Positions 7,122-16,777 of a stretch of 21,343 nucleotides of DNA are shown here, in pieces; the first letter of the stretch is position 1; each line of letters starts with the position of its first letter. The DNA is from a virus. The notes below the pieces were generated by a model. It was not told the origin of the DNA, did no database searches, and saw only the letters and a list, made by a program, of their open reading frames with translations. Position numbers and translations under genes: made by a program. Location: IMG/VR virus record IMGVR_UViG_3300029259_000679, positions 1 through 21,343 of that record; one strand, written 5' to 3'.

Positions 7122-7262
7122 CCGTCGAGCATTGATTCAAATTTTGAGCCTATGCCCGATATTCAGAAAGCCTTTACCGGGTTGCCCTCGACCTTTTACG
7201 GTAGCCGGATGTGTGATGTTACTCACTCTGCTGCATCCATAACTGACGTTACCGTCAACAAA
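7102..7262 (-). ncRNA. Candidate structured small RNA of unknown class
   Basis: Reading leftward, the sequence folds by eye into ordered elements: an outer stem GGTA/TACC (7250-7253 with 7200-7203) enclosing GGATG/CATCC (7234-7238 with 7207-7211), which encloses GTGA/TCAC (7223-7226 with 7213-7216). A six-base pairing GTCGAG/CTCGAC (7187-7192 with 7124-7129) then closes a second domain, and the terminator hairpin at 7102-7121 ends it. A possible promoter sits just upstream (TATAGG-like -10 near 7272-7277). No protein of more than about 42 codons fits. It matches no RNA family I recognise. Confidence 0.35.
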
Positions 7263-7319
7263 TTTAGTTTACCTATAATATAAATCAAAGTAAACCAAAA
7301 CTGTGTCTCCTTCCCTGCT

Positions 7320-7460
7320 CTAACCTTCTCCGAAGTTTCGGCCTGTGGCGTTTTTGACGCGTTCAATGGTTTGGTCGAACCATGCAGGGTTGGTTTGGAG
7401 TTTGGCGATTTGTTGTTAGCCGCGGATAGTTTGGATCATGTTCATGACATCAATAGCGCG
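7320..7460 (-). pseudogene. C-terminal remnant of an unidentified gene (copy 2)
   Basis: A minus-strand frame of about 46 codons ending in TAG at 7320-7322, interrupted by one TAA at 7416-7418 where a Gln codon would be expected. It reads around the stop as IQTIRG, then QQIAKLQTNPAWFDQ, then ATGRNFGEG. The codon use looks genuinely coding, and an AAGGAG-like site follows the stop, as if another gene once began there. The parent protein is not recognised. The last 58 bases occur again, more decayed, at 6366-6424. Confidence 0.45.
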
Positions 7461-7472
7461 TAAAAATGATAA

Positions 7473-7658
7473 AATAATAAAATAATAACAAGAGAAGAAT
7501 ATCTAAAAATAAAAGAAGAGCTTGAAAGACCCATTGACTTTGAAGCTCTTATAGAAAAAGGTAGATTAATATAAAAAGGAAAACAATTTTATATAGGAAA
7601 CATGAACCTACTACCAGAATACATTTCTAAAAAGATAAAAATCATCTCCAAAAAATAA
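7473..7658 (+). pseudogene. Small gene fragment with an in-frame stop
   Basis: An AT-rich plus-strand frame without a usable start reads TREEYLKIKEELERPIDF and EALIEKGRLI, then TAA (7572-7574), then KGKQFYIGNMNLLPEYIS, and ends at TAA 7656-7658. Both halves have coherent protein-like composition in the same frame, so this looks like one small gene (about 60 residues) killed by a stop and a lost 5' end. It converges on the AvcD-like gene with 10 bases between them. Family not recognised. Confidence 0.35.
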
Positions 7659-7668
7659 GCATGGTATG

Positions 7669-8739
7669 CTAATTACCTTTTATAAGTCGTTCCTTTTCTA
7701 ATAATATTTTCTGAAGATTATCAGTTACTTTAACTTCATAATCTCCATATCCATCAAGATACTGTGGATCACTGTGATTAACAGTAGAATATGAATGCTC
7801 AATAAGTTTACCCGTGGTGTCTTTTCTAGCATTCCTATATCTAAAGAAATATGTATATCTTGAAGGAGCAGTTCCTTCGAAATTATCAAAGACGACCTTT
7901 GTTGTTGATAGCTCATCTGTTGTTAATGAATCATCATACAAATCATTAGCTAAACTTTTCTCGTATGGTTCAATATAAACCACTTTTTTAATTCCCGCCG
8001 CAATTATATGCCTAGTACAAACATGACAAGGATAAGTAGTACAATATAAAGTTTTGTCGACGCTTGTGTCTCTCAGACTTCTAGCAAGAGATACAATAGC
8101 ATCCATTTCTGCATGAACAGCTCTTGAATATTCAATAATAGATTGAGCTTTCGTATCAGTCATAATTGAAGCTGCAATTTTTTCAGGATTTCCAACATTA
8201 CTATTTCTTAAGGTTTCAATGATTTGATCTTTCAATATACTTTTGTGAAAGTCATTTTGACATTGTCCTCCCTTATTGAAACATCTCATGTCATGGATAT
8301 CCTCTGACTGGTACAAACCGCCACCAAATTTTGGTACATCATTGCAGCCAGTGGATAGAACAACACCATTATCATCACAGATGGCAGCACCGACTTGACG
8401 TGATAAACATGCAGATCTTACTGAGGCAGAGTACGCATAATACATCCCTGTTTCTAGAGTGGTCGGTGTCAAATTATCAATGCCATGAATAAGCTTAACA
8501 AACCTTTCCACAGAAGACTTAAAACAACTTTTATCATCAATATTTTTTATAAAATAATCTGATTTCTGTAATGTTTTCTCAACTTGCTGCCCAAACTTCC
8601 CCTTATCTTTCCTATCTCTCTCCATTAAAGTTGCAATATTTTGCAGAGATATTTGCTCATCAGAAAGATTCTTTTTTCGTTGTTCTGAATTTCTTAACAA
8701 CCCTATCAAATAGAAATTCTTACCATACACTTCTTTCAA
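7669..8739 (-). CDS. avcD: AvcD-type deoxycytidylate deaminase, C-terminal part (out of frame with its 5' half)
   Basis: Encodes the zinc-dependent cytidine/deoxycytidylate deaminase domain of an AvcD (DCD)-type defence protein. HAE with H209 and E211, and PCHVC with C238 and C241 (numbered from 8739), are the zinc ligands and proton shuttle. Known AvcD proteins deaminate dCTP/dCMP and deplete deoxynucleotides during phage infection. The apparent TTG start at 8739 has no ribosome site. The frame is in fact open back to 8865 and there contains conserved-looking residues (TINNHKVAYLIDQVKHPDE) linking the two domains. It is therefore the second half of a single gene starting at 9226. Joining the frames by removing one A in the A9 run (8859-8867) gives about 518 residues, close to the roughly 530 usual for the family. 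The surroundings are AT-rich, suggesting recent acquisition. Confidence 0.82.
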   Translation of the reverse strand: MKEVYGKNFYLIGLLRNSEQRKKNLSDEQISLQNIATLMERDRKDKGKFGQQVEKTLQKSDYFIKNIDDKSCFKSSVERFVKLIHGIDNLTPTTLETGMYYAYSASVRSACLSRQVGAAICDDNGVVLSTGCNDVPKFGGGLYQSEDIHDMRCFNKGGQCQNDFHKSILKDQIIETLRNSNVGNPEKIAASIMTDTKAQSIIEYSRAVHAEMDAIVSLARSLRDTSVDKTLYCTTYPCHVCTRHIIAAGIKKVVYIEPYEKSLANDLYDDSLTTDELSTTKVVFDNFEGTAPSRYTYFFRYRNARKDTTGKLIEHSYSTVNHSDPQYLDGYGDYEVKVTDNLQKILLEKERLIKGN

Positions 8740-8848
8740 TAATTTTACTTCATCAGGATGTTTTACCTGATCTATTAAATAAGCTACTTTATGATTATTA
8801 ATAGTAACTTTACCTTCAGGCTGATTAATCTTTTGTTTTTCATAGATT

Positions 8849-9226
8849 TCATATCGTGTTTTTTTTTATTTTTGCTATTGAGTGCTCTGCCAAAATTGAA
8901 CATGTAAAAAGTTCTCTTAACTCATCACCCAAATCTTGATATTTATTATATCTATCGAAACCTTTTAAATTTTCTAAATCAATCTCTTCACTTTTAAAAT
9001 AATCAATTATGAACGAACTTAGTCTGATATCAACAATTTCATATCCACTAGCTTTCAGCGAAGAAATTAAATTATGCTTCAATGTCTTCACACCAGCACC
9101 AATTGCCCCACATAGACCTATAATTAATTCATTAGAACGCCTAGCTTGTATTTCTTTAGATATGTCTCTAGTGTTATTTGGACTCTGAGTTACATTGCTT
9201 ACTAATTTCTTTACTGGTTCTGCCAT
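8849..9226 (-). CDS. avcD: AvcD-type protein, N-terminal P-loop part (frameshifted)
   Basis: The 125-residue open frame from ATG 9226 (AAGGAA ribosome site six bases upstream) carries the nucleotide-binding half of the AvcD architecture. A Walker A-like loop GLCGAIGAGVKT lies at about residues 38-49, followed by a helix and a DIRLSSFI strand, as in nucleotide-kinase-like P-loop folds. It stops at TGA 8849-8851, 14 codons after leaving the conserved region, because an A9 run shifts the frame. The true continuation is in the +1 frame, which encodes the deaminase. Alone this fragment would be inactive as a deaminase. Possibilities are an inactivated gene, a sequencing error in the homopolymer, or slippage by RNA polymerase yielding some full-length product. 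A transcription terminator lies immediately upstream at 9244-9277. Confidence 0.78.
   Translation of the reverse strand: MAEPVKKLVSNVTQSPNNTRDISKEIQARRSNELIIGLCGAIGAGVKTLKHNLISSLKASGYEIVDIRLSSFIIDYFKSEEIDLENLKGFDRYNKYQDLGDELRELFTCSILAEHSIAKIKKNTI
8859..8867 (-). other. A9 homopolymer at the avcD frame break
   Basis: Nine consecutive A on the coding (minus) strand, preceded by ATA and followed by CAC. Losing one A joins the two halves of the deaminase gene. Runs of nine or more A are known sites of RNA polymerase slippage and of replication slippage, so the frame could be restored in some transcripts or some cells. Confidence 0.75.
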
Positions 9227-9243
9227 AAAAAGTTCCTTTTTTA

Positions 9244-9277
9244 GAAAAAAAAAAGGCGAGCATGTAAATGCTCGCCT
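9244..9277 (-). terminator. Strong rho-independent terminator between the small ORF and avcD
   Basis: Perfect ten-base stem 9254-9263/9268-9277 with loop GTAA, followed on the minus strand by ten U. It ends the short transcript from the 59-aa ORF region 17 bases before the avcD start, so avcD is expressed only by read-through or a promoter not seen here. Confidence 0.92.
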
Positions 9278-9293
9278 CTTAATAGAAGATATT

Positions 9294-9473
9294 TTACCAA
9301 GTAAGACGTTCAGCCTCTTTACGAACTCGGTCTCTAAATTTTTGTTCGTCTAATTTCTCTCTTTCTTTAGAAAGATCAAATACATCTAGACTAGAATTAA
9401 CACTTTTACCAGAACTTTTCTGGTTTGAAGGTGATTCAGAACATACTTTTTTAAAATCATATGTCACAACCAT
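9294..9473 (-). CDS. 59-residue protein (or ORF within an AvcI-like RNA)
   Basis: A small ORF from ATG 9473 to TAA 9294-9296 with a strong AGGAGG site about seven bases upstream. The product is hydrophilic: a short N-terminal strand (VVTYDFKKV), a Ser/Asn-rich linker, and a highly charged C-terminal helix (DLSKEREKLDEQKFRDRV). There is no signal peptide or membrane helix. The unit is followed by a strong terminator and then avcD. In known AvcID systems a small antitoxin RNA, AvcI, is encoded just upstream of avcD, so this transcript may act as RNA, as a small protein that restrains the deaminase, or both. I do not recognise the protein family. The start is supported by the ribosome site; an overlapping ATG four bases upstream stops after six codons. 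Confidence 0.6.
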   Translation of the reverse strand: MVVTYDFKKVCSESPSNQKSSGKSVNSSLDVFDLSKEREKLDEQKFRDRVRKEAERLTW

Positions 9474-9657
9474 CCATTCCCCTCCTGGGTAAAATCACAC
9501 ACAGAGAAAACTATATTCTATGCAAAAACTGCAAGAACAGTAACTATCAAAAATCATTTAGGTATTAAAAAAGAGTCAAACAGATTAGAAAGCACTAAAA
9601 ATGCCTCTAACATGCATGTATAGGATAGATCTTAGTTAAGTATGCTTAACTTTGCAA

Positions 9658-10839
9658 TTAGCATTTCCTATCAATATTTAAGTTTAATAGATTTTGACAT
9701 TCCCCCCACTCCCTCAACGCTTTGCGCATCTGCTCTCTCGAATGGGTGTGCATGTAGCGTTTGTCGAGTCCATCCCGTTCGTGGTTGAGTAGCATTTCCC
9801 CTATTACCCAGTCGATGCCCATGTCTTGCCAGCTATCTCGGGCTAGTTTGCGTATGTCATGGCTAGTGAATTTGATTCCAATGTCATCACTAAGGCTCTG
9901 ATACCAACGCTCAACGGTACGTTTCGCTATGGGCTTGTCGCCTTTCACGCTGAACACATAGTTACCCAGTTTTGGTAATGTATTTATTAGATCCATCGCG
10001 TGCTGAGTGATCGGCAAGCGGTGTTCATTGCCGTTTTTAGTATTCTCTGCCGGTATGTACCATTCCAACATGTTGGACGAAAAGTGCTTCCATTCAGCAA
10101 GGCAGGTTTCGCCTATTCGTGTACCGTGAAGTAGCTGTGTCATGAAGAAGATTCGACGCGCTGCACTTTGCTTATTAATCGCTGCTAGTAAAGTGGGTAA
10201 ATCGTGTGGCTTAAGCCGCCCTGGCTGGCTATCGGGTTGGGTCGTGGTGAAGCTAGTTAGTGTGATGCTTTTTGTAGGGTTGCTGGCAATAAGGCCAAGC
10301 TCATTGGCACGGCTAAAGGCCGTTTTCAGCACACCAAGTACGCCTTTTATAGTTGAAAGCGCATACTCGCCTTGCATAGGCATATAAAGCTGCTTGTATA
10401 AGAAGGTTTTGTCTATGTTGTTAAGCCGCACTTTATCTAACAGGCTTAGAAGGTGGTTACCAATGTAGCTGGATGCGGTAGAAACGTAGGGGTCTGAAAA
10501 GGTTTTGTCGGCGTCGATGTGCTGCATGAACCACATTAGCACCTCGCCTCCTGTTTGATACGTAGAAACAGTTAAACTTGCCTCACGATCAGCCAGCGCA
10601 TTGGCACGTATTGCAGGAAGCTCATCGAAAAGGCGCTTCGCAGTAATAGCAGGCCACTTAGCAAGCTTAGTACGCTGTCGTTTCTTACCTTTATAAACCA
10701 CATCGTAAAAGGTGCCGCCCGATCGTGCCGCGTTTATATGAAACTCAACACGGCGCATATCATACAGATATACTGTATCGGACTTTAACGCAGCACGAAT
10801 AGACGCATCACTTATCTTATTTGAAGTGCGTCTTGTCAT
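9658..10839 (-). CDS. Tyrosine recombinase/phage integrase (internal to the early operon)
   Basis: A 393-residue tyrosine recombinase with a complete catalytic set: R241 (in HGTRIGE), K268, H327 and R330 (HDIR), H353 (NHERD) and Y362 (KRYMH). Residues 1-95 form an arm-binding/DUF4102-like N-terminal region, about 96-195 the core-binding domain, and 205-375 the catalytic domain. Its ATG overlaps the stop of the upstream gene by four bases, so it is the last gene of the minus-strand early operon rather than a free-standing integrase beside an att site. A second, unrelated-looking integrase lies at 19008-20150 next to dusA. This one may resolve multimers, act at a different att site, or be the leftover of another element. 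All visible residues are intact. Confidence 0.9.
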   Translation of the reverse strand: MTRRTSNKISDASIRAALKSDTVYLYDMRRVEFHINAARSGGTFYDVVYKGKKRQRTKLAKWPAITAKRLFDELPAIRANALADREASLTVSTYQTGGEVLMWFMQHIDADKTFSDPYVSTASSYIGNHLLSLLDKVRLNNIDKTFLYKQLYMPMQGEYALSTIKGVLGVLKTAFSRANELGLIASNPTKSITLTSFTTTQPDSQPGRLKPHDLPTLLAAINKQSAARRIFFMTQLLHGTRIGETCLAEWKHFSSNMLEWYIPAENTKNGNEHRLPITQHAMDLINTLPKLGNYVFSVKGDKPIAKRTVERWYQSLSDDIGIKFTSHDIRKLARDSWQDMGIDWVIGEMLLNHERDGLDKRYMHTHSREQMRKALREWGECQNLLNLNIDRKC

Positions 10840-11363
10840 GCTACAACCTTACCACCTTCTTCATTTAACCGAGCTGTCACTTCATCTTGAAGACGAGCCA
10901 AAAAGCGTTTTCGCCCTTCCGCTACGTGATTAGAAAAGCTCTTCTCGCTGGGCGTTGCGTGAGCCGGCCCTAATCGAAGCTCAGCAGCAAATACTGGTAA
11001 AGTAGCCGCTATACGCATATTGGTTAAAGGTGCATCCTTTATTGTTCTTCGGCCTTCTGCTAACACAGCCGCGAACAGGCAAAGCATTTGCATGCGTGAC
11101 AGGTCACAAAAGAGCCACGTAAAGCCTTTGTCTTTTACGGACAAAGCGCGAATGTGCTTAATCATCGCACTATTACTGCCGCCACCGCCCGAAAAACTAG
11201 GCGTAACGCCCTGCTCTAATGATTCACAAATACGTCCGGTATTCCCCACGCCAGCCCAACCCGCATCAGCAGTGCCAGCAATAAGATAAGTCACGTGATC
11301 GTTCACGATTCGCCATCCTAGCGCACTCAATGTGTTTGGTTTCTCGCGATCTTTCCAGCGCAT
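10836..11363 (-). CDS. Early-operon protein of unknown function
   Basis: A 175-residue soluble protein, not recognised. The first half has Gly- and Trp-containing segments (LGWRIVNDHVTYLIAG, ADAGWAGVGNTGRI, then a SGGGGSNS turn), the middle is helical (residues about 85-135), and the C-terminus is a basic amphipathic helix. It is the penultimate gene of the early operon, where lambdoid phages carry late-gene antiterminators (Q), but no Q-type motif or zinc finger is visible, so this is position only. Start ATG 11363 follows an AAGAGAG site. It overlaps the integrase start by four bases. Confidence 0.6.
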   Translation of the reverse strand: MRWKDREKPNTLSALGWRIVNDHVTYLIAGTADAGWAGVGNTGRICESLEQGVTPSFSGGGGSNSAMIKHIRALSVKDKGFTWLFCDLSRMQMLCLFAAVLAEGRRTIKDAPLTNMRIAATLPVFAAELRLGPAHATPSEKSFSNHVAEGRKRFLARLQDEVTARLNEEGGKVVA

Positions 11364-11436
11364 TGTTTTCTCTCTTAGTAGTAAAACGTGTTTGGTTAGC
11401 TATAAATGCTATTAAATACACTGACTAACTTGATAA

Positions 11437-11751
11437 TTACTCAGCTACGGGGGCCGTACTCTTTACCCACCAGGTGACCGCCTTACGATTACCCTGGGCA
11501 CAAATACGAATTGGGCCTTTTTCAATTTCTTGAGCAGTTTCCGCTTCGCTCAAGCGACGACCTATCATGTAGCGATCGGCGCCATGTAAAACGGATAACT
11601 CACGACTGGTCATACCGTTTGTTCTCTGGACCATGGCAACAACACGCTCTATCTGGGCTTGGCGTGCGCCGCTTTTCGTTATTTCGCTGGCGGCGGCATA
11701 GCTACTTTCTATATCGTTGCGTCGTGCCGCAGGTGTTTGAATATTCAACAT
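11437..11751 (-). CDS. Small helix-turn-helix-like early protein
   Basis: A 104-residue protein. Residues about 33-72 (QIERVVAMVQRTNGMTSREL, then a helix with GADRYMIGRRLSE) look like a winged helix-turn-helix: helix, turn with MTSREL, recognition helix, and then a wing ending in VTWWVK. It probably binds DNA, as regulator or replication accessory. A GGAGG site lies about 11 bases before the ATG, rather far. The adjacent intergenic bases downstream (11364-11436) contain GGTTAG/CTAAC arms but no convincing promoter. The exact family is not recognised. Confidence 0.55.
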   Translation of the reverse strand: MLNIQTPAARRNDIESSYAAASEITKSGARQAQIERVVAMVQRTNGMTSRELSVLHGADRYMIGRRLSEAETAQEIEKGPIRICAQGNRKAVTWWVKSTAPVAE

Positions 11752-11756
11752 AATGA

Positions 11757-12098
11757 TTAATGCCTCCGTCTGCTTTGTTTGGACTCTTCGCCAGCAATGG
11801 CCCCATTGATCTCTTCAAGCTCAAGGCTTAATTTGACCCAACGATTGTTAGTTGCCATTGAGCACGACTTCTTAAAACTCGCTTCAAACCGCTTCTCTTC
11901 TTTTGCTAGCTCACTCATCCGGTCTAACGTTTTTGCATCGTGTTTCCCAGATAACACAACGCTCTGAAACTCTGATCTAACAGCCATCAACGGAGTCAAG
12001 TAATCCCCCTTCATCAACTCGTCGACCTGCTTGTAATCACGATTTAATTTAAGTCGATAAGACTTTAGCGCCTTTAAAACTACGTTATCTTCAACCAC
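11757..12098 (-). CDS. Charged helical early protein of unknown function
   Basis: A 113-residue, Lys/Glu-rich, almost entirely helical protein. It starts with GTG at 12098 behind a very strong GAGGGGG ribosome site and begins two bases after the stop of the previous gene. Two helical stretches (about 5-45 and 55-100) with regular hydrophobic spacing suggest a helical hairpin or coiled-coil dimer. There are no catalytic motifs and the family is not recognised. By position in the replication operon it may be a helicase-loader-like or nin-region accessory protein, but nothing in the sequence proves this. Confidence 0.55.
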   Translation of the reverse strand: MVEDNVVLKALKSYRLKLNRDYKQVDELMKGDYLTPLMAVRSEFQSVVLSGKHDAKTLDRMSELAKEEKRFEASFKKSCSMATNNRWVKLSLELEEINGAIAGEESKQSRRRH

Positions 12099-12100
12099 AA

Positions 12101-12454
12101 TTACCCCCTCAGCATGCCGCGAAGCTGACCAACACGATTACGGCCAATCATCCGTCGTTGCTGTAACTCATGATCATTTAGTTTTTCTGCAAATTTAGGC
12201 TTTTCAATCACAACAGGTTTAAAACGCTCGCCACGCAAATACGCTTTGCAAACGTCTTTGTAATGCTTAGCAAAACCTCGCTGGCCAGCGCCTGTATCCC
12301 GACGACGCAATGCCAGAAACCCTACTAATCGTGCTGCTTCCATCACTACAGGGTGGCTTGGCTTCCAGTTAGCAACATCGTGAGCGTTGTTGGCTGCTTC
12401 GGTGTACGCCTCTGTGGGTTTAGGGAATTCGTTAAACAAATCGCTGTTGATCAT
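12101..12454 (-). CDS. Early/replication-region protein of unknown function
   Basis: A 117-residue basic protein directly after the replication protein gene and overlapping no frame of it. ATG 12454 has an AGGAGG site five bases upstream and is preferred over a TTG at 12469. Residues 45-75 (VGFLALRRRDTGAGQRGFAKH) are basic and aromatic and could contact DNA. The C-terminus is again Arg-rich. It follows the replication initiator in the place of lambda P-type helicase loaders, yet is much shorter than P (about 230 residues) and carries no ATPase motif. The role is not known. Confidence 0.58.
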   Translation of the reverse strand: MINSDLFNEFPKPTEAYTEAANNAHDVANWKPSHPVVMEAARLVGFLALRRRDTGAGQRGFAKHYKDVCKAYLRGERFKPVVIEKPKFAEKLNDHELQQRRMIGRNRVGQLRGMLRG

Positions 12455-12462
12455 GAAACCTC

Positions 12463-13185
12463 CTACCAATCGGTATCGTGAATGTTCGTCAAACTGTCGC
12501 TGACTTGCTGCTTGGTTGTGGCTGGCGGCAATGATCGTGGAGCAGAGAATTGCATCGAATTACGCATCCACAGGCGCCATGCTGCGACCCAATCTTTCAT
12601 CACAGAGCCTTTCGCACGGTGGTGATCTAAAAACTTATTCGTCTCGGTTGGCCAATCCGTCGTGATTTGATTTTCTGCTAACCAATCCAGCATTCGTTGA
12701 TCAACAAGAAATTCACCAGGAACACCAGAAGCACGTTTTACAATTTTGGATTTGGGCGGAACGACCAAAGGTTCATTGACTGATTCATTGACTGGTTCAA
12801 GAGAGTGACTGGTTCTGGGTGCAGCTGCTGCACCATCCCCTAGTGCAGGAGATGCACCACCTAGTGCAGGAGATGCACCACCTAGTGCAGGAGATGCACC
12901 CCCTGTATTTACTGGCTTAGCATCGAAATCCAAAACATATACATTAGAAGAATTACCTTTTGGACCCTTTCTGCTTGTCTTCGTTAAGTAGCCAGCTTGA
13001 ATCAAACTGTCGATATGCCCAATCACCGTACGCTTGCCAATCTCACATTGATCAGCAATGTATTGATAACTCGGCCAGCACTCGCCTTGATCGTTTGCAT
13101 TGTCTGCAAGCTTTAACAAAACCAATTTACGCAAAGGATTACCCACTTTGGTTTTCATGGCTTTAACCATCAGTTCCATACTCAT
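12463..13185 (-). CDS. Phage replication protein, O-like with N-terminal helix-turn-helix
   Basis: A 240-residue protein. Residues 15-80 form a winged helix-turn-helix of the HTH_36 type used by phage replication proteins (WPSYQYIADQCEIGKRTV, recognition helix, then wing). Residues 98-121 are a low-complexity linker of three GGASPAL repeats plus an Ala run. Residues 155-215 contain WLAENQITTDWPTE and DWVAAWRLWM segments, resembling the DnaT-like/replisome-organiser C-terminal domain that binds single strands or recruits helicase. It would open the origin and load the host helicase. The repeats inside the gene are iteron-like, as in lambda O. ATG 13185 is used, with an AAGG site somewhat far upstream; the CII-like gene ends five bases before it. 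Confidence 0.78.
   Translation of the reverse strand: MSMELMVKAMKTKVGNPLRKLVLLKLADNANDQGECWPSYQYIADQCEIGKRTVIGHIDSLIQAGYLTKTSRKGPKGNSSNVYVLDFDAKPVNTGGASPALGGASPALGGASPALGDGAAAAPRTSHSLEPVNESVNEPLVVPPKSKIVKRASGVPGEFLVDQRMLDWLAENQITTDWPTETNKFLDHHRAKGSVMKDWVAAWRLWMRNSMQFSAPRSLPPATTKQQVSDSLTNIHDTDW
12818..12901. repeat. Iteron-like repeats inside the replication gene (candidate origin)
   Basis: Three direct repeats of 21 bp (12839-12859, 12860-12880, 12881-12901), identical except for the last base of the third. Each contains the inverted arms GTGCA/TGCAC around GGAGA. A fourth, perfect palindromic variant (GGTGCAG, CTG, CTGCACC) lies at 12818-12834. Lambda's origin is likewise a set of palindromic iterons within gene O, so this is a candidate replication origin as well as a coding repeat. 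Confidence 0.6.
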
Positions 13186-14695: not shown

Positions 14696-15706
14696 ATGAG
14701 ATCGGATACCAAAACAAAAACGGTTCATTATAAAAATGCAGTTATTACAAACACTCCTGAAACGCTTCAAGAGCTATTAAAAACAGCACTAGATAAAAGC
14801 GGGTCAATACCGAAAGCATTCGACCGTGAAGAAACTATAGGATTAGATGACTCAAACCGTCGCTTAATTAATCGTCACACATCCCAAAATGGGATGTTTT
14901 TTGGTCAGTTGGTTTTGTTCGAAAGCGGAAGAGGACAACCTTTAATAGAATTAAATATCAATACAGAGTTTTATCAAATCAACTCTATTACAACAGAGTT
15001 CTTGAAAGAAGGAATAAAAGACACTTCTAATGATGTCAGTAAAAGAGAGTTCATAGACTCAATTCTATATTTCGGAGTCCTTGATAACCACGTAATGGTT
15101 CTCCCGTCGAACGCCTTAAAAGCCAGAGACTTAGAAACACATTTGAATTGGCTCTTAACATCTCGAACCAACACCCTTCATGAACACAGCATTTTACATT
15201 TACAAGATAAGCCGACAGAAGAGACCATTTCAAAGATAATGCGTTCGCCAGTTCAAAAGATCGTTCTTGGTTCAAAAATTGAAACCTATGGCGAGTTAGA
15301 TAAAGAACGAGCTTTAAAATGGAAACCTAAAGGCATTGGTGCGAGTATACTAGAAGCGATTGCTGGACACAGTTGGGGGAAAACTGTTCGTCTTAACGAT
15401 TGCCTAGACGAGTCAAACTTAAAGGTTCATCTTGTGGTCTCATACTCAAGAAAAACCAATACTTCTGGTCAAAAGGTACTGGATAGCATAGCTACCTCCC
15501 TCAGAAATAGCGATGAGGACGACCTACTAATAAAGCTACACGGAGGAGGAACGATTAAAGGTAAAGACCTCAAGCTTTCTGGCAATTTGAGTGTAAAAAC
15601 AATCAGCGGTCTAATTGATGAAAGCGACCTTTATTTGAGAATGAGCGAATGGTTCATGTCCAAAGTAAAGTCAAATGAGTTAGAATTAGATTTCAACGAT
15701 GACTAA
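14696..15706 (+). CDS. RexA-like exclusion protein (by context and weak resemblance)
   Basis: A 336-residue soluble protein with a GAGGAG site six bases before its ATG. It lies directly after cI and before a four-helix membrane protein, the order of lambda cI-rexA-rexB. Lambda RexA is 279 residues. Two segments resemble it by eye: the strand-strand-helix FIDSILYFGVLDNHVM followed by RDLETHLNWLL (about residues 119-154), and the C-terminal helix after LSGNLSVKTIS with DLYLRMSEWF (about 310-325). The similarity is distant and would need profile comparison. If correct, the protein senses incoming phage DNA complexes and activates its membrane partner, causing abortive infection. It should be expressed in the lysogen with cI. 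Alternatively it is another two-component defence sensor. Confidence 0.6.
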   Translation: MRSDTKTKTVHYKNAVITNTPETLQELLKTALDKSGSIPKAFDREETIGLDDSNRRLINRHTSQNGMFFGQLVLFESGRGQPLIELNINTEFYQINSITTEFLKEGIKDTSNDVSKREFIDSILYFGVLDNHVMVLPSNALKARDLETHLNWLLTSRTNTLHEHSILHLQDKPTEETISKIMRSPVQKIVLGSKIETYGELDKERALKWKPKGIGASILEAIAGHSWGKTVRLNDCLDESNLKVHLVVSYSRKTNTSGQKVLDSIATSLRNSDEDDLLIKLHGGGTIKGKDLKLSGNLSVKTISGLIDESDLYLRMSEWFMSKVKSNELELDFNDD

Positions 15707-15729: not shown

Positions 15730-16257
15730 GTGCAAAAATACAGCCCAATTTCATTATTCTTAGGAGCATGCCTAAGCACCATATTTGGTGCTCTAGCGTT
15801 CTACGCCCTTATAATGAACTTATCTACAAACTCTTTGTTTGAAGCTAAAGCACCATGGGCTATCAGCAGCATTTTTTTGCTTCCAATTACACTTTGCATA
15901 CAATTACTTATTAGCCAATGGAGCTTAAAGTCTGAACAGGATGACTTAAAAAAAACGGAAGTTAGAAGATTAAGAGCACTACTTGAGCAAAAAAACAAAC
16001 ACATCTACTTTTGCTTAGCTTTCTATGTATTCTCATTTACAGTCACAATGTTACTTTTTTCTCTAGTCTCTCAATCCATTAATACATTCAAATATCCAAT
16101 CACTATAGTCGGTGGACTTGTTGGCCTAACGCTCTACTCTATCTGCTGGATAATTCATGAAAAGAAAGAAATTTCAGATTTTAAAGCTGCAATTAGTGAT
16201 AGAAAACGCCAACATGAGAACCAAAAGAGACGCAAAGAAAGATTCGGTAACGATTAA
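15730..16257 (+). CDS. Four-helix membrane protein, RexB-like
   Basis: A 175-residue inner-membrane protein starting with GTG at 15730, 24 bases after the RexA-like gene. Transmembrane segments lie at about 7-29, 42-63, 91-113 and 123-143. A charged cytoplasmic-type loop lies between the second and third (KTEVRRLRALLEQKNK, 75-90), and the C-terminal tail is basic (residues 145-175). Lambda RexB (144 residues) has the same four helices with a basic RRLAKIREY loop between helices two and three. RexB is an ion channel whose opening depolarises the cell during superinfection. The ribosome site is weak, so translation may be coupled to the upstream gene. A terminator follows at 16278-16303, closing the cI-rexA-rexB-like unit. 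Confidence 0.65.
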   Translation: MQKYSPISLFLGACLSTIFGALAFYALIMNLSTNSLFEAKAPWAISSIFLLPITLCIQLLISQWSLKSEQDDLKKTEVRRLRALLEQKNKHIYFCLAFYVFSFTVTMLLFSLVSQSINTFKYPITIVGGLVGLTLYSICWIIHEKKEISDFKAAISDRKRQHENQKRRKERFGND

Positions 16258-16432: not shown

Positions 16433-16777
16433 ATGTTAATACTGACTCGACGCATCGGCGAAAGCATCATCATTGGAGACAACATCTCCTTAACCGTTTC
16501 TGGCATTAAAGGCGACCTAGTTCGCATCACGTCAGCGACACCAAAACTGCTGCTTGTTACTAAGAAAGTCACGCAATCCATCACGATTGGCCATGACATC
16601 ACAGTCACCATTCTTTCGATCAAAGGCATGCAAGTTCGCCTTGGCATCGACGCTCCTCGCTCTGTCTCCATTCATCGTGAAGAGATCTATCAGCGCATTC
16701 AGGATGAAAAGGCTCAAGACTTACCACTGTACGCACTGCAAAAGCCTCGTATCAGCTCAGCAGCACTAAACCGCTAG
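16433..16777 (+). CDS. Tandem CsrA-like RNA-binding regulator (one and a half CsrA units)
   Basis: A 114-residue protein made of two collinear CsrA copies. Residues 1-38 match CsrA 1-38 (LILTRR start, IGD turn, IKGDLVRI), then stop before the beta5-helix part. Residues 39-95 are a complete second copy ([37 protein letters not shown]). CsrA works as a dimer whose RNA site joins beta1 of one subunit (R6) with beta5 of the other (R44). Here the first beta1 has R6/R7, the second has Lys44/Lys45 in their place, and only one beta5 (R82) exists. The fused protein could therefore fold as a single-chain pseudo-dimer with one good RNA site, or mix with host CsrA. It would bind GGA-containing leaders. 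First gene of the CI-controlled plus-strand operon. The AGGA before its ATG is itself a GGA motif. Confidence 0.88.

Follow-up and report, generated by a model that had tools for sequence, protein, structure and literature searches.

A one-base frame break at an A9 run in an AvcD-type anti-phage deaminase gene carried in a prophage cargo slot

Background

An anti-phage deaminase gene that is split between two reading frames at a run of nine A residues could be a dead gene, a gene turned on and off by phase variation, a toxin gene kept at low level by slippage, or a sound gene with an error in its sequence. The locus discussed here raises that question, and the earlier note on this DNA offered all four answers. 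It lies in the IMG/VR record IMGVR_UViG_3300029259_000679, and by the window we mean the whole 21,343 bases analysed. Positions of the features are given in Table 1.

Table 1. Features of the avcD locus and its surroundings, by position in the window
Feature	Position	Strand	Remarks
KilA-N gene, 3'-end remnant	7308..7447	-	5'-truncated, with internal stop; intact at 189-199 aa in sister prophages
56-codon frame convergent to avcD	7488..7658	+	internal TAA, no start codon
avcD remainder, neighbouring frame, 397 codons to stop	7669..8862	-	rest of kinase-like domain and zinc dCMP/dCTP deaminase domain; HAE, PCHVC
avcD N-terminal part, 125-aa ORF, ATG to TGA	8849..9226	-	P-loop GLCGAIGAGVKT; TGA just past the A9 run
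A9 homopolymer (T9 on + strand), frame-change point	8859..8867	-	deaminase frame entered only by +1 (or -2)
Intrinsic-terminator-like hairpin followed by T10	9245..9280	-	between small ORF and avcD; z -3.95
59-aa ORF MVVTYDF...ERLTW	9294..9473	-	strong ribosome-binding site; 5' of avcD, in relatives too
Second integrase-type gene	9658..10839	-	upstream border of cargo slot; conserved at 76-85% aa in sister prophages

The prophage and its cargo slot

The window is the integrase end of a lambdoid prophage beside dusA, and runs on via CI/CII/O-like genes to terminase and portal genes. The host of this dusA-integrated prophage is most likely a gammaproteobacterium; in a comparison with 369 genomes the top DusA match was at 62%. 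Outside the avcD region, a 336-aa gene adjoining the repressor (14696-15706, + strand) matches PHROG family 3482, of unknown function (E=5e-105), and is followed by a gene for a probable membrane protein (15730-16257). There is also a phage-borne CsrA-like regulator of 114 aa with two CsrA stretches (16433-16777, + strand), where the phage in L002 has a single 61-aa CsrA.

Four sister prophages (L063, L064, L065 and L066; TerL 87-93% in three of the four, integrase 76-85%) were compared with the window. The same slot, from the second integrase to the KilA-N gene, holds other cargo in all four (about 7140-13000; 7300-9650 in the window), so that the cargo differs at one place across five related prophages. 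L064 carries an Nhi/AbiO-like helicase gene, L065 has DUF262 and HEPN genes with a BsuBI/PstI-type restriction-modification gene past KilA-N, L063 has what reads as a RelE-like toxin gene with an HTH partner, and the cargo of L066 consists of genes of unknown function. The GC content of avcD is 32%, against 45% for the phage, and avcD is AT-rich cargo in a variable defence slot which has undergone loss. The small frame convergent to avcD is probably another gene remnant; no relative of it was found in Pfam, PHROGs or plasmids.

The two frames make up one AvcD family member

With regard to family, the two frames are covered contiguously by the same profiles. For the PADLOC dCTPase profile PDLC02373 the N-terminal ORF matches positions 135-232 (E=1.6e-23) and the C-terminal frame positions 234-551 (E=3e-143), with neither overlap nor gap, and for NCBIfam NF041025, "anti-phage dCTP deaminase", the corresponding ranges are 1-91 and 95-437. 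The C-terminal frame alone scores 404.8 bits, above the NF041025 cut-off of 400 bits. In alignment with intact relatives the two halves abut in a variable linker with no sequence missing. The gene is thus not in a single frame, being interrupted by a +1 break at 8859-8867, and this net one-base shift is the sole defect of the joined avcD, which has no other stops or shifts.

The earlier note had described an AvcD-type antiphage deaminase with its P-loop half and deaminase half in adjacent frames split at the A9 run, about 518 residues long when joined and with all zinc ligands, and all of this is borne out: the coordinates are correct and both HAE and PCxxC are kept. It had also called both flanks of the run conserved-looking, and the joined halves do match AvcD/dCTP-deaminase proteins end to end. 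As judged by these profiles avcD is a family member by descent.

Relatives and the age of the break

All 28 avcD relatives found in viral contigs are in a single frame, and these were picked by patterns in the deaminase part, so the sample is not biased against split genes. The six genomic relatives, from among 198 genomes, are likewise intact. With 0/28 and 0/6 split, the lesion is private to the window, and neither a split nor a slippery site is conserved across the 34 as would be looked for in a programmed frameshift.

The window's terminal branch in a tree built on the deaminase part is 0.69, against a median of 0.64, and at 81 otherwise invariant columns the window deviates at 4, the others deviating at 0-5 (the 5 in an intact relative). 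Loss of constraint is thus undetectable, and the deaminase frame seems to be about as constrained as those of intact relatives, with no sign of long neutral drift. It follows from the near-median branch and the few deviations that the break is either recent or not real. In IMG/VR no sequence matched the exact pattern around the run, and peptide searches of IMG/VR and GTDB representative genomes gave no near-identical copy, only distant relatives at 48-56%.

It had been proposed that relatives with unrelated stops would point to simple decay, and this holds in part only. There are other broken avcD copies with lesions elsewhere: in R. gallicum pRGM101a (L059) and an M. fortuitum plasmid (L062) avcD-type genes are split into two annotated ORFs, with breaks away from long homopolymers. 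The slot beside avcD also holds the KilA-N remnant and the second small broken frame. The 34 relatives discussed above are all intact.

The favoured explanation

We consider that avcD is a recent one-base knockout allele in a defence cargo gene, and put the probability of this at a little over one half (about 0.52). An AvcID-type anti-phage locus, comprising the small gene of the antitoxin region, the terminator and avcD, would have been carried in the variable slot of the dusA-integrated lambdoid prophage, and avcD would lately have taken a one-base slippage indel within the A-run. By default only the 125-aa fragment would then be made, the deaminase would be absent and the system would be off. 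Two points here are inferred, namely a real and recent indel, and a product with no activity beyond such trace as RNA-polymerase slippage may supply. For this reading we have one family profile matched from end to end by both halves, which abut in relatives, a KilA-N neighbour that is already a remnant, and plasmid records in which avcD frameshifts with other lesions exist. Against a clean "off" state, the A9 run may permit some transcriptional slippage, so that the allele may be leaky.

Possible error at the homopolymer

The first alternative is that the consensus or the assembly is wrong at the homopolymer and the true avcD is intact. This is a possibility to be taken seriously, although we think it unlikely. 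The sole defect is one base, no coding homopolymer in the window is longer than the run that holds it, and the gene is otherwise unimpaired. Deposited avcD genes do carry such errors: in the E. coli a58 plasmid record (L058, NZ_OR902861.1) three avcD A8 runs read A7 relative to H10407, splitting the annotated gene, and these changes, typical of homopolymer miscalls, are probably sequencing errors in the record. However five runs of 7 and one of 8 occur in the 26 other ORFs (16.7 kb), and every one of these ORFs is intact, so the record does not suffer from homopolymer damage in general.

Is the A9 run a switch?

A broader proposal is that the A9 run is a reversible or leaky switch, working by replication or RNA-polymerase slippage, such that most lysogens would keep a toxic deaminase silent and a few would make it full-length, with the antitoxin region intact. 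We give this a small chance. Phase variation, in which replication slippage on the A-run toggles the defence gene within a population, is improbable in our estimate. It would fit the A9 run, the single lesion and the constraint retained in the off frame, and homopolymer on/off switches are well known in other bacteria (Neisseria, for example; PMC5084427). The length of the run argues against it. In simulations that were composition-matched or used synonymous codons, the chance of a run of at least 8 is 41-52% and of at least 9 is 17-37%; the in-frame run of a repaired avcD would be 8, and codons at the join were trimmed for the simulated comparison. The length of A9 is thus not beyond chance at 32% GC. 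Nor is a run conserved at the site, as none of the relatives aligned at the A9 position has one there, their A8 runs being elsewhere. A Klebsiella avcD for which no gene is annotated was suspected of being broken at its A8 run, but that run is identical in all six plasmid copies, which also argues against switching.

Slippage in transcription or translation

Slippage of RNA polymerase or the ribosome on the A-run could also serve to give a little full-length AvcD on purpose, and in favour of this bacterial RNA polymerase is known to slip where nine A or T follow one another (PMC5009743), and in Citrobacter an A11 run gives about 20% rescue of tssM1 (PMC4256274). We nevertheless find it quite improbable that the gene is expressed in this way by design. 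To reach the deaminase frame a shift of +1 or -2 is required, so one base must be lost or two gained, and the usual directions of slippage (-1 for the ribosome, an added A in transcription) end in the wrong frame. In E. coli no deletion slippage on poly(A) could be detected (PMC6260861). We considered -1 ribosomal frameshifting at the heptamer A AAA AAC within the run and rejected it, as the -1 frame meets a stop after 25 codons, and a stimulatory RNA structure beside the run was also rejected (z +0.8). The split gene is, as noted, conserved in none of the 34 relatives. Some leak of full-length AvcD from slippage at A9 is possible, and nothing suggests a programmed one.

Of the four answers offered at the outset, recent inactivation and sequence error are therefore the two that we favour, while phase variation and programmed slippage gain no positive support, there being no split relative, no run at the site in relatives, no RNA structure, and a wrong frame at the end of the usual slippage directions.

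What the break would do to the product

In the AlphaFold model of the intact relative L003 (mean pLDDT 82) a dCMP-deaminase domain comes after one that is adenylate-kinase-like (best match 3h0k, TM 0.79 by target). The junction corresponds to the end of helix 110-127, with a disordered loop and strand three of the kinase-like domain still to come, and the 125-aa N-terminal product covers two of the five strands of that domain. Because the junction falls inside the adenylate-kinase-like domain, the model predicts that this product cannot be a functional domain, and that neither half is a complete unit. The earliest possible start codon in the second frame is a TTG at 8739, which has no clear ribosome site and would omit about 41 codons of family sequence. 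By default the locus would thus yield no AvcD. That the two ORFs act as separate proteins, a split AvcD, is scarcely credible and was rejected on structure, since the break is within a domain and not between domains and the second frame would start so poorly, although both frames are long and conserved.

A small ORF in the antitoxin region

Wherever a gammaproteobacterial-type locus has enough sequence on the 5' side, a small ORF of 56-78 aa lies directly upstream of avcD (for example at 4379-4549 in L003, 2382-2567 in L005, 2345-2515 in L008 and 1586-1771 in L049). Most copies end in Trp and a stop, with Asp in ETEC H10407 (61 aa, WP_000070788.1) and related loci. Identity to the copy in the window is low, at 11-20%, and what is common is position, size and C-terminal pattern. 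For three close pairs the synonymous and non-synonymous changes per site are 0.63 vs 0.32, 0.10 vs 0.02 and 0.06 vs 0.01; two further pairs, with one non-synonymous change each, are uninformative. The substitution pattern in the close pairs indicates that the small ORF is under purifying selection. The more distant avcD subfamilies are without it.

For V. cholerae, the discoverers of AvcI reportedly tested for a peptide and ruled it out. Published work treats the region 5' of avcD as an antitoxin RNA, AvcI, that is about 280 nt long and non-coding (PMC10511110). In the window, a -10-like site near 9520 could give a putative transcript of about 270 nt that ends at the terminator, and an Rfam search of the window gave no match. 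A terminator precedes avcD in 3 of 15 loci, namely the window, L008 (2513-2589) and L014. The small ORF sits at the place of the AvcI RNA, which raises the question of whether the antitoxin is purely RNA or the region is also protein-coding; from its position and its pattern of change, a protein may act as antitoxin in addition to, or in place of, the RNA.

Significance

As found, the locus belongs, in broken form, to a known defence family and is most likely ordinary. If the run did turn out to work as a switch, a defence toxin that depletes nucleotides would be under a new mode of control. What deserves interest is the slot and the small ORF: the prophage cargo slot is one that turns over defence genes, dead ones included, and the conserved small ORF, a by-product of the analysis of avcD, may matter more than the frameshift.

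Comparison with known systems

The closest comparison is with the AvcID and DcdV-type deoxycytidine deaminase systems of Vibrio and E. coli (ETEC). The window shares with them the P-loop and zinc deaminase architecture, the motifs, the length and a small upstream element at the antitoxin position, and differs in that its avcD is frameshifted by one base at A9. It also differs from the V. parahaemolyticus avcID locus, for which no terminator was predicted (PMC10511110), in having a strong intrinsic terminator before avcD.

With regard to prophage defence-cargo slots, the window is alike in having a variable slot flanked by conserved phage genes, with different defence genes in its sisters, and is different in having a broken cargo gene and, on its flank, a KilA-N gene reduced to a remnant.

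The genes known for slippage on poly-A runs, tssM1 of Citrobacter rodentium and dnaX of Thermus, resemble avcD in that an otherwise intact gene loses its frame at a long A/T homopolymer. However their runs are of 9-11 and give alternative products via added bases, whereas the window needs one base lost or two gained, and its site is common to no relative.
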